DNA of 64,000 nt from Halobaculum rubrum (GCF_019880225.1 NZ_CP082284.1:1798001-1862000), one strand, 5' to 3'. Shown: positions 50,454-58,667, counted from the stretch's first letter. Numbers and translations: made by a program. Notes: generated by a model not told the origin, from the sequence alone.

Positions 50454-51173
50454 GTGCCCGACATCGTCGACGCGCTCGTTCCGTTCTCTCCCGATCGCCC
50501 GAAGACCCGGCTCTCGGACACGCTCGATCCCGAGGAGCGACGCGCGTTCGCCGAGGCCATGCTGTCGGACGTGCTCGCGGCGCTCGACGGGGCGGGCTTT
50601 GTGCCGCGGCTGCTCACAACCGAGGCCACCGGCCGCGACGTGCCCGAGACGGTCGACGACCGGCCGCTCACCGAGGCGGTGAACGCCGCGCTCGACGCGC
50701 ACGTCCCCGGCCCCGATTCGCCGCTGGCGGTCGTGATGGCGGATCTGGCGCTGGCGACGCCGCGGGCGATCGCGCGCCTGGGCGTCGACGGCGAGCGTGG
50801 TGGCGGCGGCACTGCTGACAGCGCCGGCGACGGTACCGGTGTCAGCAACGCCGACGCCGACGCCGGCGCCGCCGACGTGGCGATCGCGCCGGGTCGCGGC
50901 GGCGGAACGAACGCGCTGCTCGTTCGCCACCCCGAGTTCCGCGTCGACTACCACGGCGCCTCCTACCTCGATCACCTGCGTGTGGCTCGCGATATCGACG
51001 CGAGCGTCCGCGAGGTAGACTCCCGACGGCTGGCGACCGATATCGACGAGCGCGCGGATCTGACGGAGGTGCTGCTCGCGGGCGACGGCGCCGCCCGCGA
51101 CTGGCTCGTGGATGCCGGGTTCAGACTGGACGCCGGCGGCGGGCGGGTGTCGGTCGAACGAATGCCGAAATAG
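50454..51173 (+). CDS. cofC: 2-phospho-L-lactate guanylyltransferase CofC
   Basis: A 239-residue enzyme of coenzyme F420 synthesis that activates 2-phospholactate (or phosphoenolpyruvate) with GTP. FSPDRPKTRLSDTLDPEERRAF starts the nucleotidyltransferase fold and VVMADLALATP holds the metal Asp. APGRGGGTNALL is the phosphate-binding loop. A Gly/Ala-rich insert of about 25 residues (about 118-145) disrupts the usual spacing. GTG start at 50454, 22 bases after the membrane protein gene. Confidence 0.9.
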   Translation: MPDIVDALVPFSPDRPKTRLSDTLDPEERRAFAEAMLSDVLAALDGAGFVPRLLTTEATGRDVPETVDDRPLTEAVNAALDAHVPGPDSPLAVVMADLALATPRAIARLGVDGERGGGGTADSAGDGTGVSNADADAGAADVAIAPGRGGGTNALLVRHPEFRVDYHGASYLDHLRVARDIDASVREVDSRRLATDIDERADLTEVLLAGDGAARDWLVDAGFRLDAGGGRVSVERMPK

Positions 51174-51210
51174 GGTTGCCGCCCGGGACGAGATCGTTTC
51201 CGGTCCGTCG

Positions 51211-51879
51211 CTACTCGCCCGCGTGTTCGAGGCTCGCCACCAGCTCCGTCGCGGCGGCGAGTTCGTCCTCGTTGACGCCGTGGCCCATCCCCTCGTAGAT
51301 GCGCTCGTCCACGTCCGCACCCAACCCGGAGAGCACCTCGGTCGTCTCCGTCACGCGCTCCAACGGGATGTGGGGGTCCACGTCCGAGCAGCCGAGGAAA
51401 ACCGGCGTGCCGTCGAGGTCGCCGTCGTACTCGCGGGGCGTCCCCTCGGGGCCGATCAGCCCGCCGGAGAAGCCGACGAGGCCGCCGTACCGGCGGGCGT
51501 TGCGCGCGACCCACTCCGAGGAGAGGCACGCGCCCTGCGAGAAGCCGAGCAGGAGCACGCGCTCGTGGCCGACGGCGTCGGCGGCGGCGTCGACGACGCT
51601 GCCGACGAACCCGAGCGCGGAGTCGAGGTGTGGCTGGTTCGTGGGCATCTCCTCCATGAACGAGTTGGGGTACCAGGTGTTGCGGCTGGCGGACGGGGCG
51701 AGGTAGGCGACCGAGTCGGTGTCGAACTCGCCGGCCATCCCGAGGATGCTGCGGGCGGTCGCGCCGCGGCCGTGGACCATCACGACCGCCGCCGTCGCCT
51801 CGCCCAAGTCGGCGCCGGCGTGGCGAACGGGCTGGCCGCCGTGGGGGCCGTCGACCCCGCTGGTGTCGATGTCGGTCAT
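51211..51879 (-). CDS. Phospholipase/carboxylesterase family hydrolase
   Basis: A 222-residue alpha/beta hydrolase of the carboxylesterase type. VVMVHGRGATARSI opens the fold; GFSQGACLS is the nucleophile elbow, DVDPHIPLERV carries the acid and YEGMGHGVNEDEL the His. It lies between cofC and cofG in the opposite direction, so it breaks the F420 pair. Substrate is unknown. Confidence 0.88.
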   Translation of the reverse strand: MTDIDTSGVDGPHGGQPVRHAGADLGEATAAVVMVHGRGATARSILGMAGEFDTDSVAYLAPSASRNTWYPNSFMEEMPTNQPHLDSALGFVGSVVDAAADAVGHERVLLLGFSQGACLSSEWVARNARRYGGLVGFSGGLIGPEGTPREYDGDLDGTPVFLGCSDVDPHIPLERVTETTEVLSGLGADVDERIYEGMGHGVNEDELAAATELVASLEHAGE

Positions 51880-52023
51880 CGCTCGTTCACTCGCCCGCGT
51901 GCGGGGTATCGGTTGTGGTGGCGGATCCGGGTCGTCGCCGCGGCGGTCCTCCTTTCCCGTCCGGTCCCCGCCACCCTCGCCACGACCGACTCGTTTTTGC
52001 CCCTCGGTCGGCGACCTCACGGT

Positions 52024-53169
52024 GTGTTCCCCGGGGCCGAGGAGTACGGCATCGAGATCGCGGTCGCCGACCGCGAGGTCGAGCGGCTGTTGTCGGTCAC
52101 GCCCGACGACGTCGACGCGGCGCCGGAACTCACGTTCGCCCGGAACGTGTTCGTCCCGCTGACGACCGCCTGCCGGTACACCTGCACGTACTGCACCTAC
52201 TACGACGTGCCCGGCGAGGCGAGCCTGCTGTCGCCCGAGGAGGTGCGCGAGCGGTGCCGCGTCGGCGCCGACGCCGGCTGTACGGAGGCGCTGTTCACCT
52301 TCGGCGACAAGCCGGACGACCGCTACACCGGGATCCACGACCAGTTGGCGGAGTGGGGATACGACTCGATCGTCGCGTACCACGAGCGCGCCTGCGAGAT
52401 CGCCCTCGAGGAGGGGCTGCTCCCGCACTCGAACCCCGGCGATCTCACGGAGGCCGAGTTCCGCCGCCTCCGCGACGTGAACGCCTCGATGGGCGTGATG
52501 CTGGAGACGACCGCCGACGTGGACGCCCACGCCGGGGGCAGGCGGAAGACGCCCGGCCAGCGGCTGAACACGATCCGCGCCGCGGGGGAGGCGCGCGTCC
52601 CCTTCACGACGGGCATCCTCGTCGGCATCGGCGAGGAGTGGCGCGATCGGGCCGAGTCGCTGCTGGCGATCCGCGCGCTTCACGAGCGATACGACCACGT
52701 GCAGGAGGTGATCGTCCAGCCCGTGACGCCCAACGAGCGCTCCGACTTCGAGGGCCCCTCGAGAGCGACGATGCGGCGGGTGACGGCGATGGCGCGCGCC
52801 GCGTTGCCGCCGGAGGTGTCGGTGCAGTCGCCGCCGAACCTCGCGCCCGTCGGTGACCTGCTCGACTGCGGCGTCGACGATCTGGGCGGCGTCTCGCCCG
52901 TGACGGACGACTACATCAACCCGGAGTACGCGTGGCCCGCCCTCGACGAACTCCGCCAGATCGCCGACTCGGGCGGCGTCCCGCTGCACGAACGCCTCCC
53001 GACCCACGAGCGCTTCCTGCCCGAGGAGCACCGGCGCGCCGGCTTCGACGGCGACCCCGCGCCGGGACGCTGGCTCCACGGCCGGATCCCCGCGGCGCTC
53101 GGCGACGAGAGCCTCCACGGGGAGCGCTTCCGCGGCGTCGCCCGACGCGATGCGCCGCTGTCGGTGTGA
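52024..53169 (+). CDS. cofG: 7,8-didemethyl-8-hydroxy-5-deazariboflavin synthase subunit CofG
   Basis: A 381-residue radical SAM enzyme that together with CofH makes the F0 chromophore of F420. The iron-sulfur motif CRYTCTYC (CxxxCxxC) lies at about residues 50-57. LFTFGDKPDDRY and HSNPGDLTEAE are typical of the family. GTG start at 52024 is chosen since it precedes the conserved core; no ATG is suitable. CofH is not in the window. Confidence 0.92.
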   Translation: MFPGAEEYGIEIAVADREVERLLSVTPDDVDAAPELTFARNVFVPLTTACRYTCTYCTYYDVPGEASLLSPEEVRERCRVGADAGCTEALFTFGDKPDDRYTGIHDQLAEWGYDSIVAYHERACEIALEEGLLPHSNPGDLTEAEFRRLRDVNASMGVMLETTADVDAHAGGRRKTPGQRLNTIRAAGEARVPFTTGILVGIGEEWRDRAESLLAIRALHERYDHVQEVIVQPVTPNERSDFEGPSRATMRRVTAMARAALPPEVSVQSPPNLAPVGDLLDCGVDDLGGVSPVTDDYINPEYAWPALDELRQIADSGGVPLHERLPTHERFLPEEHRRAGFDGDPAPGRWLHGRIPAALGDESLHGERFRGVARRDAPLSV

Positions 53170-53301
53170 GCCGCACGCGGGAGCGACGTCGCGTCGGTCC
53201 GGGTCGTCGACGGGACCCGTGTGAAGTCGGCCACGCGATCCGTGCGAGCGCCGCCGACGCCAGCAGATTCTTCACCCGTCCGACCCTGCCGGAATTCGTA
53301 C

Positions 53302-54240
53302 ATGTACGGCGTGACATCGACGGTCACCGGACTCGCGCTGCAGATCGACACCGGGGCGGTCGTCGCCCGACTGGGCGGTTACGCGACGAACGTGATCGGC
53401 TTCGTCCTCGGGTTCGTGCTCACCTATCTCCTCGGCAAGCTGATCCTGATGCCGCTCGCCCACCGGGTGTTGAACCGTCGCGGCTTCGACCGCACCGTGC
53501 TCAGCCTCGCGGACAGCGTGCTGGCCGCGCTGGTGGTGGTGCTCGCGATCTCGATCGGGTTCATGGCCGCCGGCTTCCCGCGGTTCCTCACCGCGGTGGC
53601 GACGCTGGGCGGCGCGCTCGCGCTGGCGATCGGCTTCGCAGCACAGGACCTCATCGGCAACTTCGTCGCGGGCGTGTTCATCATCAAGGACAAGCCCTTC
53701 GAGGTGGGCGACTGGATCGAGTGGAGCGACAACGCGGGCCGCGTCGAGGACATCGACCTGCGCGTCTCCAGGGTGCGCACCTTCGACAACGAACGCGTCA
53801 CCGTCCCGAACGGCGAACTCGCGAACAACGCGATCACCAACCCCGTCGCCTACGACACGCTGCGTCAGAAGTTCGTCTTCGGCATCGGCTACGACGACGA
53901 CATCGACCACGCGACCGACTGCATCCTCGAGGAGGCCGAGGGCGTCGACGGCATCCTCGACGACCCCGCCCCCTCGGTGCGCGTCACCGAGCTCGGCGAC
54001 TCGGCGGTCGGCCTCCAGAGCCGCTTCTGGATCGACGAGCCCGACCGCGGCGACTTCGTGCGCGTCCGCTCGGCGTACGTGCAGGCGGTGAAGGAGCGCT
54101 TCGACGCGGAGGGGATCGACATGCCGTACGTCCACCGCCAGCTCACCGGCGAGGTGGAGGTGCTGGAGTCCGTCGCCGGCGACGCGGTCGAAGCCGTCGA
54201 CACGCCGGCGGCGACGGACGGCGAGGGCGACGGGGACTGA
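53302..54240 (+). CDS. Small-conductance mechanosensitive channel (MscS family)
   Basis: A 312-residue MscS channel. Three or four membrane helices come first; the pore helix is rich in Gly/Ala (LGGALALAIGFAAQDLIGNFVAGVF). The beta domain FEVGDWIEWSDNAGRVEDIDLR and NGELANNAITN follow. It releases solutes on osmotic downshock. The ATG at 53302 starts a short N-terminus. The tail is acidic. Confidence 0.95.
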   Translation: MYGVTSTVTGLALQIDTGAVVARLGGYATNVIGFVLGFVLTYLLGKLILMPLAHRVLNRRGFDRTVLSLADSVLAALVVVLAISIGFMAAGFPRFLTAVATLGGALALAIGFAAQDLIGNFVAGVFIIKDKPFEVGDWIEWSDNAGRVEDIDLRVSRVRTFDNERVTVPNGELANNAITNPVAYDTLRQKFVFGIGYDDDIDHATDCILEEAEGVDGILDDPAPSVRVTELGDSAVGLQSRFWIDEPDRGDFVRVRSAYVQAVKERFDAEGIDMPYVHRQLTGEVEVLESVAGDAVEAVDTPAATDGEGDGD

Positions 54241-54322: not shown

Positions 54323-55264
54323 GTGACCCTGCGCTCGCGCCTCGAAACGCTGTTCGACAACACCTACGAGCGCGTGCTGCGCCGAGAGATCGGCGACGGG
54401 CCGGACCACGTCGCGATCATCCAGGACGGGAACCGCCGGTATGCCCGCAGTCGCGGCGACGACGCGCCCGACGGCCACCGCGCGGGCGCCGACACCACAG
54501 AGCGGGTGCTCGACTGGTGTGCGGATCTCGGCGTCGAGGAGCTCACGCTGTACGCCTTCTCGACGGAGAACTTCGACCGGCCCGAGGAGGAGCTGGACCC
54601 GCTGTTCGACCTGCTGGAGGACAAGCTCCGGGAGTTCGCCGACGCCGACCGCGTCCACGAACAGGGCGTGTGTATCCGCGCGCTCGGCGACGTGGAGCGG
54701 CTTCCCGAACGCGTCCGCGACGCCGTCGAGTACGCCGAGGCGCGCACCGCCGGCTACGACGACTTCACGCTGAACATCGCGCTGGCGTACGGCGGCCGCA
54801 ACGAACTGCTCGGGGCGGTCCGGGCGGTCGCCCGCGACGTGGCCGACGGCGACCTCGCCGCCGCCGACGTGGGCGTCGCCGAGGTGGAGTCGCGGCTGTA
54901 CCGCCGGCCCGTCCGCGACGTGGACCTCATCATCAGGACCGGCGGCGACGAGCGCACCTCGAACTTCCTGCCGTGGCACGCCAACGGCAACGAGGCGGCG
55001 GCGTACTTCTGCTCGCCGTACTGGCCGGAGTTCTCGAAGGTCGACTTCCTGCGCTCCATCCGCACCTACGAGGCGCGCGAGGAGTCGTGGCGCCGCACCC
55101 GAGCGAAACGGGCCGCCGCGCTCGTGCGGTCGCTCGCGGAGGTCGAACTCGGCGAGGCGAGGGCTGTCGCCGCCCGCCTGCGCGACCGACTCCCGGGCGA
55201 CGCGACCGACGAGGAACTGAACGAGGCGCTGGAGAGCGGCGCCGCGGGCGAGACGGCCGACTGA
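54323..55264 (+). CDS. uppS: Cis-prenyltransferase, catalytic (UppS/DHDDS-like)
   Basis: A 313-residue cis-prenyltransferase that lengthens allylic diphosphates with isopentenyl diphosphate to give the polyprenol carrier. Catalytic motifs are complete: IIQDGNRRYARSRG (D35), LYAFSTENFDRP and IIRTGGDERTSNFLPWHA. The protein continues beyond the core with a long helix and an acidic tail and lacks the C-terminal RxG that homodimeric enzymes use to bind the diphosphate. GTG start at 54323. It converges on a second, degenerate member 73 bases away. Confidence 0.94.
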   Translation: MTLRSRLETLFDNTYERVLRREIGDGPDHVAIIQDGNRRYARSRGDDAPDGHRAGADTTERVLDWCADLGVEELTLYAFSTENFDRPEEELDPLFDLLEDKLREFADADRVHEQGVCIRALGDVERLPERVRDAVEYAEARTAGYDDFTLNIALAYGGRNELLGAVRAVARDVADGDLAAADVGVAEVESRLYRRPVRDVDLIIRTGGDERTSNFLPWHANGNEAAAYFCSPYWPEFSKVDFLRSIRTYEAREESWRRTRAKRAAALVRSLAEVELGEARAVAARLRDRLPGDATDEELNEALESGAAGETAD

Positions 55265-55337
55265 CCGGGGCCCGGCAAAGCGTCGACGGTCCCTCCCCGG
55301 CTCCCTCCGATCGCGACGAGGTCGGGCCGACGATCTG

Positions 55338-55946
55338 TTACGTTCCGAACCGTCGCTGGCGGTTCTGGTAGTCCAGCACCGCCCGGAGGTAGTCCCGTTT
55401 CCGGAAGTCCCGCCAGTTCACGTCGGTGAAGTACAGTTCCGAGTACACCGACTGCCAGATGAGGAAGTCCGAGAGCCGCTCTGCGCCCGTCTTGATCACC
55501 AGATCCGGCTCCTCGGGGAAGATCAGGCGGTCCTCGATGTCGGCCTCCGCGACCTCGTCGGGGTCGATATCGCCGGCCTCGACGGCCGCGGCGATATCGC
55601 GGACGGCGTCGACGAACTCGCGTTTCCCGCCGAGGCCGATGTTCACCCGGATCGGCGCGTCCGCGCGGGCGGTGTCCTCGGGCGTCCGAACCGCGATCGA
55701 ACGGGGAGCGTCGACGTCCGCCAGTTCGCGAGCGAGGGTGTCGACGACCGCCTCGTCGAGCACCGAGACGGAGACTGTGACGCGCTCGGCGCCGTACTCG
55801 AACGTCCAGCCGAGAAACGACTCCAGCGTGTCGTAGGCCCCCTGTTCGAGCAGGTCGCGTTCGGTGATGACGAGGGCGACGTGGGCGGGCGGGTCGCCGG
55901 GGTTGCGGCGGTGGCGCACGCCGAGGTACGCGTCGTAGAGTCCCAC
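55338..55946 (-). CDS. Non-catalytic cis-prenyltransferase paralogue (NgBR/Nus1-like)
   Basis: A 202-residue member of the UppS family. The N-terminal half is degenerate: at the place of DGNRR it reads HVALVITERDLLEQGA, so the catalytic Asp motif is gone, and the FSxEN motif is replaced by VSVSVLDEA. The C-terminal half is well conserved: KTGAERLSDFLIWQSVYSEL, YFTDVNWRDF. It ends RRFGT, an RxG motif at the extreme C-terminus. This is the pattern of the accessory subunit of heteromeric cis-prenyltransferases. The catalytic neighbour lacks RxG, so the two look complementary. Confidence 0.85.
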   Translation of the reverse strand: MGLYDAYLGVRHRRNPGDPPAHVALVITERDLLEQGAYDTLESFLGWTFEYGAERVTVSVSVLDEAVVDTLARELADVDAPRSIAVRTPEDTARADAPIRVNIGLGGKREFVDAVRDIAAAVEAGDIDPDEVAEADIEDRLIFPEEPDLVIKTGAERLSDFLIWQSVYSELYFTDVNWRDFRKRDYLRAVLDYQNRQRRFGT

Positions 55947-56003
55947 TGCTTGTTCGGGAATCCGACGGGCGCCCGAAAGCGTTACCGCTCTCGTCGCCGC
56001 CGC

Positions 56004-56042
56004 GCCGCCGTCCCGGGACCGCGAGCCGCCGTCCCGGGACCG
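56004..56042. promoter_or_regulatory. Two identical 18-bp elements 21 bp apart, candidate operator
   Basis: GCCGCCGTCCCGGGACCG occurs at 56004-56021 and again at 56025-56042. Each contains the perfect palindrome GTCCCGGGAC. The 21-bp period is two helical turns, so two dimers would bind the same DNA face. The pair lies in the 125-base divergent region between the cis-prenyltransferase paralogue (start 55946) and the DUF92 gene (start 56072), 30 bases before the latter. Confidence 0.6.
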
Positions 56043-56071
56043 TTAAGTGTGCGTCGGGGGTACCCTCGGCC

Positions 56072-57562
56072 GTGAGACACCGACTCCGGCGCGCGGGGGC
56101 GTTCGCCGTCGTCGCCTCGGCGGTGTTGGCCGCGCCGGCGCTGGGGCCGGCCGCCGCCGCGCCGTTCGCCGCCGTCGCCGTCCTCGCGGCGTTCGTCGTC
56201 GACGAGGGTCGGTTCTTCGAGCTGTTCGCCCGCCCGGGCGACTACGAGGACCGCCGACTCAACGGGCTCGCGGGGTTCGCGCTCGCGGCGACCGCCCTCG
56301 GCGTGTTGACCGCGCTCCCGCAGTCGCCGATGCCGGTCACCGTGTACGCCGCGAGCGTGCTCTCGCTGACGTACGGCGTCCTCGGGCGCGAGTTCGTCCG
56401 CGAGTCCACCGGCGACGAGTTCGCCACGACGACCGCGTTCACGGTCGCGGCGTTCGCGGCCGCGACGCTCGGCCAGGCAGCCGTCGCCGTCGCCGCCGAC
56501 TCGTTCGCGGTCGCGGCGCTCCCGACGTACGTGTTCCTCGCGGCGACCGCCGCGCTCGTGGCCGCACTCCTCCGCTCGGTGCTGTTCCCCCGCGACGATC
56601 CGATCGTTGTCGTGTCGGTCGGGTTCCTCCTGTGGCTGCTGTCGGCGCTCGTTGCCGCCGGCGGGGTCGTCGTCACGCCGACGCTCGTTGCCGCCGGCCT
56701 CACGCTCACCGTCGGGCTCGGCGTCGTCTCGTACGTGCTCGAGACCGCGTCGGTCTCGGGAATGTTGACGGGCGTACTGTTGGGCTTCGCGACCGTCGTG
56801 CTCGGCGGGATCGGCTGGTTCGTCGTGCTCATCTCGTTTTTCGCCATCGGCGGACTCGCCGCGAAGTTCCGGTTCGAGGAGAAGAACGCTCGCGGCGTCG
56901 CCGAGGGCAACGACGGCGCTCGCGGCGCCGGCAACGTCCTCGGCAACGCCGGGGTCGCGCTGTGCTCGGTGGTCGCGTTCGCGGCCGCGAGGGCGGTCGT
57001 GCCGGACACCACCCTCCCGACGCTGATCGCGTTCGCGTTCGCCGGCTCGGTCGCGGCTGCGATGGCCGACACGCTCTCCTCGGAGTTCGGCGGGCTGTTC
57101 GACGCGCCGCGGCTGGTGACGACGCTGCGGCCGGTCGACCCCGGCACCGACGGGGCGATCACCTGGCAGGGGGAGGTCGCGGGCGTCGCCGGCGCCGGGG
57201 CGGTCGGCGGGCTGGCGGCGCTGGCGATGCCGCTGGGCGGCTCTGCGACGACGGACGGCCTCGCGGGCTTGGCGGCCGCCGGCGTACCGCTCGCGGTTCC
57301 CGTGGCCGCCGCCGTCACCGGCGCGGGGTTCGTCGGCATGACGGTCGACAGCCTGCTGGGCGCGACCGTCGAGGGCGACCGGATCGGCAATCAGGGGGTG
57401 AACACGCTCGCGACGCTGTCGGGCGCGCTCGCGGCCGTCGTGCTCGCGGTCGTCGCCGGCGCTGCGCCGGTTCCGTCGCCGGCGACGCTCGGGGCGCTCG
57501 CGGACGCGCTCGCGTCGGTCGCGGCGATCGTCGTTCACGTACCGCCGGTCCTGCCGACGTGA
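56072..57562 (+). CDS. DUF92 integral membrane protein (prenyl-phosphate kinase family candidate)
   Basis: A 496-residue protein with 12 or more membrane segments from a GTG at 56072. The C-terminal 250 residues are the DUF92 domain, with RFEEKNARGVAEGNDGARGAGNVLGN, DTLSSEFGGL, PVDPGTDGAITWQGE and NTLATLSGA. DUF92 includes plant VTE6, a phytyl-phosphate kinase that uses CTP or UTP, and TMEM19. The N-terminal half is an extra membrane region. Beside cis-prenyltransferases it could phosphorylate or recycle polyprenyl phosphates; this is inference. Its stop overlaps the next gene (GTGA). Confidence 0.88.
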   Translation: MRHRLRRAGAFAVVASAVLAAPALGPAAAAPFAAVAVLAAFVVDEGRFFELFARPGDYEDRRLNGLAGFALAATALGVLTALPQSPMPVTVYAASVLSLTYGVLGREFVRESTGDEFATTTAFTVAAFAAATLGQAAVAVAADSFAVAALPTYVFLAATAALVAALLRSVLFPRDDPIVVVSVGFLLWLLSALVAAGGVVVTPTLVAAGLTLTVGLGVVSYVLETASVSGMLTGVLLGFATVVLGGIGWFVVLISFFAIGGLAAKFRFEEKNARGVAEGNDGARGAGNVLGNAGVALCSVVAFAAARAVVPDTTLPTLIAFAFAGSVAAAMADTLSSEFGGLFDAPRLVTTLRPVDPGTDGAITWQGEVAGVAGAGAVGGLAALAMPLGGSATTDGLAGLAAAGVPLAVPVAAAVTGAGFVGMTVDSLLGATVEGDRIGNQGVNTLATLSGALAAVVLAVVAGAAPVPSPATLGALADALASVAAIVVHVPPVLPT

Positions 57563-58005
57563 CGATCCGACGGGGGCGACCGGCCGACGAGCCGGCCGTT
57601 CGAAGGCTCCAGCGGCTGCTTCACGAGCCGAGCACGACGCTGTGCTCGCACGGCCTGCGGACCGGGGAGGCCCTCGTCGATGAGACGGCCGAGGGCGTCG
57701 TCGTCGGCTACCTGCTCCCGGTCGCCGGCGACGGCGTCCACGTCGCCGAGCTCGTCGTCCACCCCGACTACAGGCGGGAGGGGCGGGCGACCCGGCTCCT
57801 CCAGCGGCTTCTCGCCCGCGTCGACGGCCGCGTCACCCTCCTCGTCGCCGCCGACAACGACGGCGCGAGGCGCCTGTACGAGTCGCTCGAGTTTCGCCCG
57901 ACTGCGCGGCGTCCCGGCTTCTACGACGACGGGACGGACGCGATACTGCTGGCTCGCGAGCCTCGGAGCACCGGAGCCACGGATCAGACCGACGACGAGC
58001 GGTAG
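57559..58005 (+). CDS. GNAT-family N-acetyltransferase
   Basis: A 148-residue acetyltransferase. Strand beta4 and motif A read VAELVVHPDYRREGRATRLLQRLL, with the acetyl-CoA pyrophosphate loop RREGRA. AADNDGARRLYESLEF gives motif B. GTG start at 57559 overlaps the DUF92 stop by 4 bases. It ends inside the convergent VTT gene (22-base overlap). Substrate is unknown. Confidence 0.9.
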   Translation: MTIRRGRPADEPAVRRLQRLLHEPSTTLCSHGLRTGEALVDETAEGVVVGYLLPVAGDGVHVAELVVHPDYRREGRATRLLQRLLARVDGRVTLLVAADNDGARRLYESLEFRPTARRPGFYDDGTDAILLAREPRSTGATDQTDDER

Positions 58006-58667
58006 TGTCGGTACGCCGGTCCCGCGAGGAGGAGGAGGCCGCCGAGCGCCGCCGCGCCGATCAACCACGGGTCGAGCACGCCGTCGAGGCCCACCTCGGC
58101 GACGCGCCCGGCGGAGGCGCCCGCGACGGTGCCGGCGACGGCCCACGGGAGTTCCCCGATCGCGCTCCCGAGGACGAACGGACCGGCGCGGACGCCCGCG
58201 AGGCCGGCGGCGACGGAGACGGCGTCGGAGGGGAACGGGAGCAGCCGGGAGGCGGCGACCGAGCGGGTCCCCCCCGCGACGGAGACGGCGCGCTCGCCGG
58301 CGCCGACGGCGCGGTCGAGGAGGTCGTTGACGGCCGTCGAGATCCGGTCGGCGCCGGCGAGCGCGCCGCCCGCGCCGCGCCCGCGACGGGCGAACAGGTA
58401 CGGCGGGATCGAGGTCAGTACCATCGCGCCCAGCGACAGGGGGATCGCCGACAGCCCGAAGCCGTAGCCGGCGACGACCGCCAACAGCGTCACCGGCCAC
58501 GCGACCAGCGGACGAACGACCGCCAGTGCGACGAGCACCGCGAGAAGCCTCCACGGATCGGCGGTGACCCACGCGAGGCGGTCGAGCACGGCGTTCGGGG
58601 AGCCGACCGCGACCGCGACCACCACCGCGCCGGCGACGAGGCCGCCGACGAGCGCGCGACGGTTCAC
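57984..58667 (-). CDS. VTT-domain (DedA/TVP38-like) membrane protein
   Basis: A 227-residue protein from a GTG at 58667 with about five membrane segments. The VTT signature is SRLLPFPSDAVSVAAGLAGV, then GSAIGELPW. An early PVTLLAVVAGYGFG loop matches the re-entrant loop. DedA/VTT proteins scramble or flip lipids; some bacterial DedA proteins return undecaprenyl phosphate across the membrane. Here it sits with the cis-prenyltransferases and DUF92. Its 3' end overlaps the GNAT gene. Confidence 0.85.
   Translation of the reverse strand: MNRRALVGGLVAGAVVVAVAVGSPNAVLDRLAWVTADPWRLLAVLVALAVVRPLVAWPVTLLAVVAGYGFGLSAIPLSLGAMVLTSIPPYLFARRGRGAGGALAGADRISTAVNDLLDRAVGAGERAVSVAGGTRSVAASRLLPFPSDAVSVAAGLAGVRAGPFVLGSAIGELPWAVAGTVAGASAGRVAEVGLDGVLDPWLIGAAALGGLLLLAGPAYRHYRSSSV

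Follow-up and report, generated by a model that had tools for sequence, protein, structure and literature searches.

The window analysed here, a 64,000-nucleotide stretch of the Halobaculum rubrum genome, contains five genes within 4.4 kb (54323-58667) that a first-pass annotation had proposed to make, activate and recycle a dolichol-type lipid carrier as one system (Table 1). Two of them encode cis-prenyltransferase (cPT) family proteins, referred to here as cPT1 and cPT2, and the DUF92, GNAT and VTT genes that the annotation had placed next to this pair are all found there. The cPT1 and cPT2 genes are convergent, with their stop codons 73 bp apart, and the cPT2 and DUF92 genes are divergent. 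The locus is therefore not a single operon. The GTG start codon of the GNAT gene overlaps the DUF92 stop codon by 4 nt (GTGA). A genome search found cPT1 and cPT2 to be the only PF01255 proteins in the 3.06-Mb host genome, and a total of exactly two is shared by almost every genome in a sample of 145 from haloarchaea.

Table 1. Features of the cis-prenyltransferase locus, in positions of the window
Feature	Coordinates	Strand	Description
cPT1	54323-55264	+	313 aa; cis-prenyltransferase, predicted catalytic subunit; PF01255 over full length, TIGR00055
cPT2	55338-55946	-	202 aa; predicted non-catalytic, NgBR-like cis-prenyltransferase subunit; PF01255 C-terminal half
Divergent cPT2/DUF92 intergenic region	55947-56071		125 bp; tandem 21-nt repeat at 56001-56042
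DUF92	56072-57562	+	COG1836/arCOG02245, VTE6-related polytopic membrane protein; PF01940, 174.6 bits
GNAT acetyltransferase	57559-58005	+	PF00583; passenger or accessory gene
VTT/DedA-domain protein	57984-58667	-	PF09335, 39.6 bits (cut-off 33.9); outside the conserved unit

The two cPT proteins carry complementary sets of motifs. cPT1 matches PF01255 with 230.7 bits and TIGR00055 with 236.5 bits (cut-off 109.55), and its profile alignment to human DHDDS spans positions 3-278. It retains DGNRR and RTGGDERTSNFL and has no C-terminal RxG, just as the first-pass annotation had read it; the 76 aa that lie beyond its WPxF motif contain none. We extended the motif comparison to 112 cPT1 and 168 cPT2 sequences, drawn partly from haloarchaea and partly from other families in the phylum. 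Every cPT1 sequence (112/112) contains DGN[R/G]R, and none of the 112 has a terminal R-x-G-x in register; the sole terminal match, an RSG at locus L123, sits in an unaligned tail. The segment after WPxF measures 63-104 aa in haloarchaea and 21-25 aa in several other families, in which it stops short of the RxG position.

cPT2 matches PF01255 at positions 105-219 only (95.4 bits) and has VITERDLLEQGAY at the place expected for DGN.R. Its C terminus reads NRQRRFGT, in agreement with the earlier description of a protein with a terminal RRFGT and no catalytic Asp motif. Among its relatives DGN[RG]R occurs in 0/168, and all 168 end exactly in R-x-G-x, preceded by another Arg (RRxGx) and followed by nothing. 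The AF2 model of cPT2 (pLDDT 83) has a cis-prenyltransferase fold that matches those of UppS and DHDDS. In a maximum-likelihood tree of 71 rows, a single branch with support of 100/99 separates cPT1 from cPT2, and the pair is thus older than the haloarchaea.

In the human enzyme hcis-PT, the end of NgBR, R290-L-G-K293-COOH, reaches over the subunit interface into the DHDDS site, where its carboxylate touches R37 and R85 (PMC7573591). Human DHDDS/NgBR (PDB 6w2l, 6z1n) and the haloarchaeal pair both combine a catalytic subunit of the DGNRR type, with a C-terminal extension and no RxG, with a pseudo-subunit that ends in R-x-G-x-COOH; the long haloarchaeal cPT1 tail is comparable to the DHDDS C-terminal domain described in PMC7573591. 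The end of cPT2 has the same residue spacing to the carboxyl terminus as the human NgBR tail, and the partner residues in cPT1 are R38, N83 and R86. These three are invariant across 38 aligned haloarchaeal sequences, which fits a heteromer without proving one, because homodimeric enzymes retain these residues as well. cPT2 differs from NgBR in several respects. It lacks the N-terminal transmembrane anchor of NgBR/NUS1 proper, its first strand starting at residue 22, and a larger part of the IPP-side motif survives in it (TGAERLSDF, W-Q, E170). In profile comparisons it is nearer to bacterial UppS, whose C-terminal halves score 106 bits, than to NUS1, which is matched over nearly its whole length at 26 bits, and we therefore describe it as NgBR-like in role and do not class it as NgBR.

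From these sequences we predict with good confidence that cPT1 and cPT2 constitute a heteromeric cis-prenyltransferase of the kind known from Methanosarcina and eukaryotes. cPT1 would provide the catalytic pocket (DGNRR, SxENFxR and RTGGDERTSNF), and the R-x-G-x-COOH tail of cPT2, which has no pocket of its own, would cross the dimer and complete the cPT1 site in the way that NgBR completes that of DHDDS. Jointly they would synthesize a long polyprenyl diphosphate, the source of the dolichyl-phosphate glycan carrier. The first-pass annotation had also proposed a split-site pair of the DHDDS/NgBR type, and this proposal gains support from the mutually exclusive motifs, the uniform cPT2 tail and the separation into two clades. 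PMC8131916 describes a heteromeric cPT of Methanosarcina mazei that consists of MM_0618 and MM_1083 and gives C45-50 products, and names MM_0014 as a third paralogue; on that account the M. mazei system shares with cPT1/cPT2 two archaeal cPT paralogues and a long-chain product for the glycosyl carrier. Genomes of the Methanosarcinaceae type (f12) have one cPT1 and one cPT2 each, so that MM_0618 and MM_1083 would, by elimination, be their orthologues. Unlike in the haloarchaea, cPT2 and DUF92 are unlinked in these genomes.

Comparing the gene neighbourhood across haloarchaeal genomes, as the first-pass annotation had suggested, we found its core conserved. The arrangement cPT1> <cPT2 DUF92> is present in 58 of 75 haloarchaeal genomes within the 18 kb examined per locus, and in 49 of these 58 the gap between cPT2 and DUF92 is <300 bp. 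The full trio also occurs at 11 non-haloarchaeal loci, from Candidatus Methanoperedens, Argoarchaeum, Ethanoperedens, Methanocellales and isolate Met33H. Some of the haloarchaeal synteny is mere background, given that genes for DnaG (named from a Toprim match and sequence resemblance) and DUF5778 are also conserved around the trio. Around the window locus this background has disappeared, yet the trio persists; in some genera, g2 among them, the neighbourhood itself no longer exists. Of 20 haloarchaeal genomes selected chiefly for a trio that is disrupted or incompletely visible, all have cPT2 and exactly one DUF92, and the head-to-head cPT2/DUF92 pair is intact in 11. A further cPT-like gene lies away from the trio in the genomes of loci L043, L053, L064 and L091 (G061, G068, G002 and G105) and, by search, in G098.

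The linkage between cPT2 and DUF92 extends well beyond the haloarchaea. In a phylum-wide sample of 148 genomes, 137 of which have a best match listed and form the denominator here, cPT2 lies <=3 kb from DUF92 in 68/137 genomes, spread over 12 of 22 families. The two genes are head to head in all 68 cases, and a linkage with such uniform orientation is more than chance. Ten families show no such linkage of the two genes, and in several families with DUF92 elsewhere cPT1 and cPT2 are still convergent neighbours. Five genomes of one family, f17 (G151, G160, G169, G178 and G185), have DUF92 and no match to the cPT2 profile, and G151 has no PF01255 match at all; these genomes must therefore have either a different lipid carrier or a different substrate for DUF92.

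We consider it probable that cPT1 and cPT2 act as a heteromer that makes the dolichyl-phosphate carrier chain, with DUF92 coupled to it, most likely as a kinase, with the GNAT gene an occasional companion and with the VTT gene a chance neighbour. DUF92 would then serve the same isoprenoid pathway from the membrane, as a CTP-dependent prenyl-phosphate kinase that provides prenyl phosphates or diphosphates or regenerates them. The protein matches PF01940 well above the cut-off of 27.5 bits and contains the conserved motifs DT(L/F)SSE.G, GTDG..TWQG and DS..GAT.E. Plant VTE6, the studied DUF92 relative, also has the PF01940 domain and acts on phytyl phosphate as a phytyl-phosphate kinase, and COG1836 is linked to phytol-phosphate metabolism and VTE6. 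The window protein is unlike the TIGR00297/VTE6 type in that it scores 134.4 bits against TIGR00297 (NCBIfam), below the cut-off of 205.85, and has an additional ~200 aa of membrane helices at its N terminus.

Makarova, Galperin and Koonin described the uppS gene context of the DUF92 family (arCOG02245) and its kinship with cytidylyltransferases, and proposed that it is a likely isoprenoid kinase (PMC5898192). They called the N-terminal extension of the Methanosarcina protein SEC59-like, a character that we did not reproduce for the haloarchaeal extension, which has no Pfam match. The N-terminal and C-terminal halves of DUF92 showed no significant similarity in a profile comparison, and a Foldseek search of the PDB with the DUF92 model returned no match below E 0.001. 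A CdsA/SEC59-like fold thus finds no support in the Foldseek, Pfam or half-against-half comparisons. Because our fold and profile searches were negative, the kinase assignment, which we nevertheless regard as the most likely one, rests on the published analysis and on family membership. The same publication notes that the dolichol kinase arCOG01881 coexists with arCOG02245. We found a separate, weakly matching small SEC59/CTP_transf_1-like gene in 28/28 genomes at a loose threshold; DUF92 therefore need not be the dolichol kinase, and the idea that it is the only one is weakened.

The heteromer could also be real and DUF92 be an isoprenoid-salvage kinase, converting, for example, geranylgeranyl phosphate to GGPP, with the proximity of the genes reflecting ancestral gene order and not a role specific to the carrier. 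We regard this as possible, if on the unlikely side. The activity of VTE6 on phytyl phosphate points in this direction, as do the ten families with unlinked genes and the retention of DUF92 in f17 genomes in which no cPT is detectable. Conversely, both genomes of another family (f30) have cPTs and no DUF92. These patterns indicate that DUF92 is not strictly bound to the cPT product and caution against a role in carrier synthesis only. Inherited gene order does not readily account for a head-to-head pair that survives in 12 families despite changing neighbours, or for its persistence in 11 of the 20 haloarchaeal genomes with a disrupted or incompletely visible trio.

A more elaborate version of carrier synthesis, which we judge to be rather improbable, would make cPT2 a hinge that both completes the cPT1 site and docks the soluble cis-prenyltransferase on the DUF92 membrane kinase, replacing the membrane anchor of NgBR, so that prenyl phosphate is activated and goes straight to elongation. 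Such a role would explain why, in the phylum at large, DUF92 is paired head to head with cPT2 rather than with cPT1.

It is conceivable that cPT1 is active alone as a homodimer and that cPT2, a relative with a regulatory or moonlighting role, makes no contact with its active site. PMC8131916 offers a precedent in MM_0014, a cPT that also has no RxG and works as a homodimer with C25-40 products; it reports MM_0618/MM_1083, however, as heteromeric. We consider an independent cPT1 very unlikely. cPT2 holds exactly the tail that is missing from cPT1, in 168/168 sequences and with nothing past it, and is kept alongside cPT1 in nearly every haloarchaeal genome checked, and the haloarchaeal cPT1 bears a C-terminal extension at the position of a homodimer tail.

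The remaining genes of the block fit the predicted carrier pathway less well. A GNAT gene stands beside DUF92 in 26/80 loci, and most loci thus do without it; we see it as an occasional, lineage-restricted passenger or accessory gene. The VTT gene adjoins the unit in 5/80 loci, in the host genus and two other genera. DedA proteins are able to translocate C55-P, and the window gene shares their VTT domain, but it scores 16 bits against the UptA equivalog model (NCBIfam), for which the cut-off is 250. The host gene for the oligosaccharyltransferase AglB lies outside the window (C1:393644-396631), and a gene for DUF368, a polyprenyl-phosphate translocase of the PopT type, follows it after 445 bp (C1:397076-397831); the region comprises loci L233 and L234. 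DUF368 is present in 23/24 haloarchaea sampled, the host included (22/23 of the others), and the Haloferax volcanii homologue partially complements a Vibrio cholerae DUF368 mutant (PMC9876793). The sparse distribution of VTT, its failure against the UptA model and the position of DUF368 next to AglB together mean that the recycling arm is better assigned to DUF368, the likely translocase of the host and a much better candidate than the VTT gene to which the first-pass annotation had given the return of the carrier. A single dedicated system for making, activating and recycling the carrier that takes in every gene of the block, VTT and GNAT among them, is extremely unlikely and largely refuted by gene distribution: all the genes do lie within 4.4 kb, DedA proteins can move C55-P across membranes and, of the 26 loci with a GNAT gene, 18 show the 4-nt overlap with DUF92, but VTT is rare at the unit and on the opposite strand, most loci lack GNAT, and a PopT-type gene directly follows AglB. 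Because VTT and GNAT are sparse, the "one system" first proposed is reduced to cPT1, cPT2 and DUF92.

Throughout this archaeal phylum the RxG tail and the catalytic pocket are as a rule divided between two proteins, a split familiar from disease mutations in human DHDDS/NgBR. Most of this ground is already covered, by the heteromeric M. mazei cPT in PMC8131916 and by the DUF92-uppS link and kinase prediction in PMC5898192; DUF92 is an ancient and real partner gene of the cPT pair, and was noticed previously. What is new is the extent and regularity of the split, with a terminal R-x-G-x in every cPT2, and the fixed head-to-head pairing of DUF92 with the non-catalytic subunit, together with the removal of VTT from the picture. 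Several steps of archaeal dolichyl-phosphate synthesis are marked unknown in PMC5088576, and the phylum-wide head-to-head pairing of cPT2 with DUF92 opens the kinase question to genetic tests, for instance in the model H. volcanii.

Two local features of the window accompany the conserved unit. Just upstream of cPT1 (50454-54240) lie CofC- and CofG-type genes of F420 biosynthesis and an MscS-type gene, which occupy this place in the host genus and few other genera; in most haloarchaea a DUF5778 gene stands there and diverges from cPT1. This is a local rearrangement upstream of cPT1 that left the cPT1/cPT2/DUF92 trio intact. The divergent cPT2/DUF92 promoter region contains the tandem 21-nt repeat listed in Table 1, which includes a TCCCGGGA palindrome and is possibly a regulator site.
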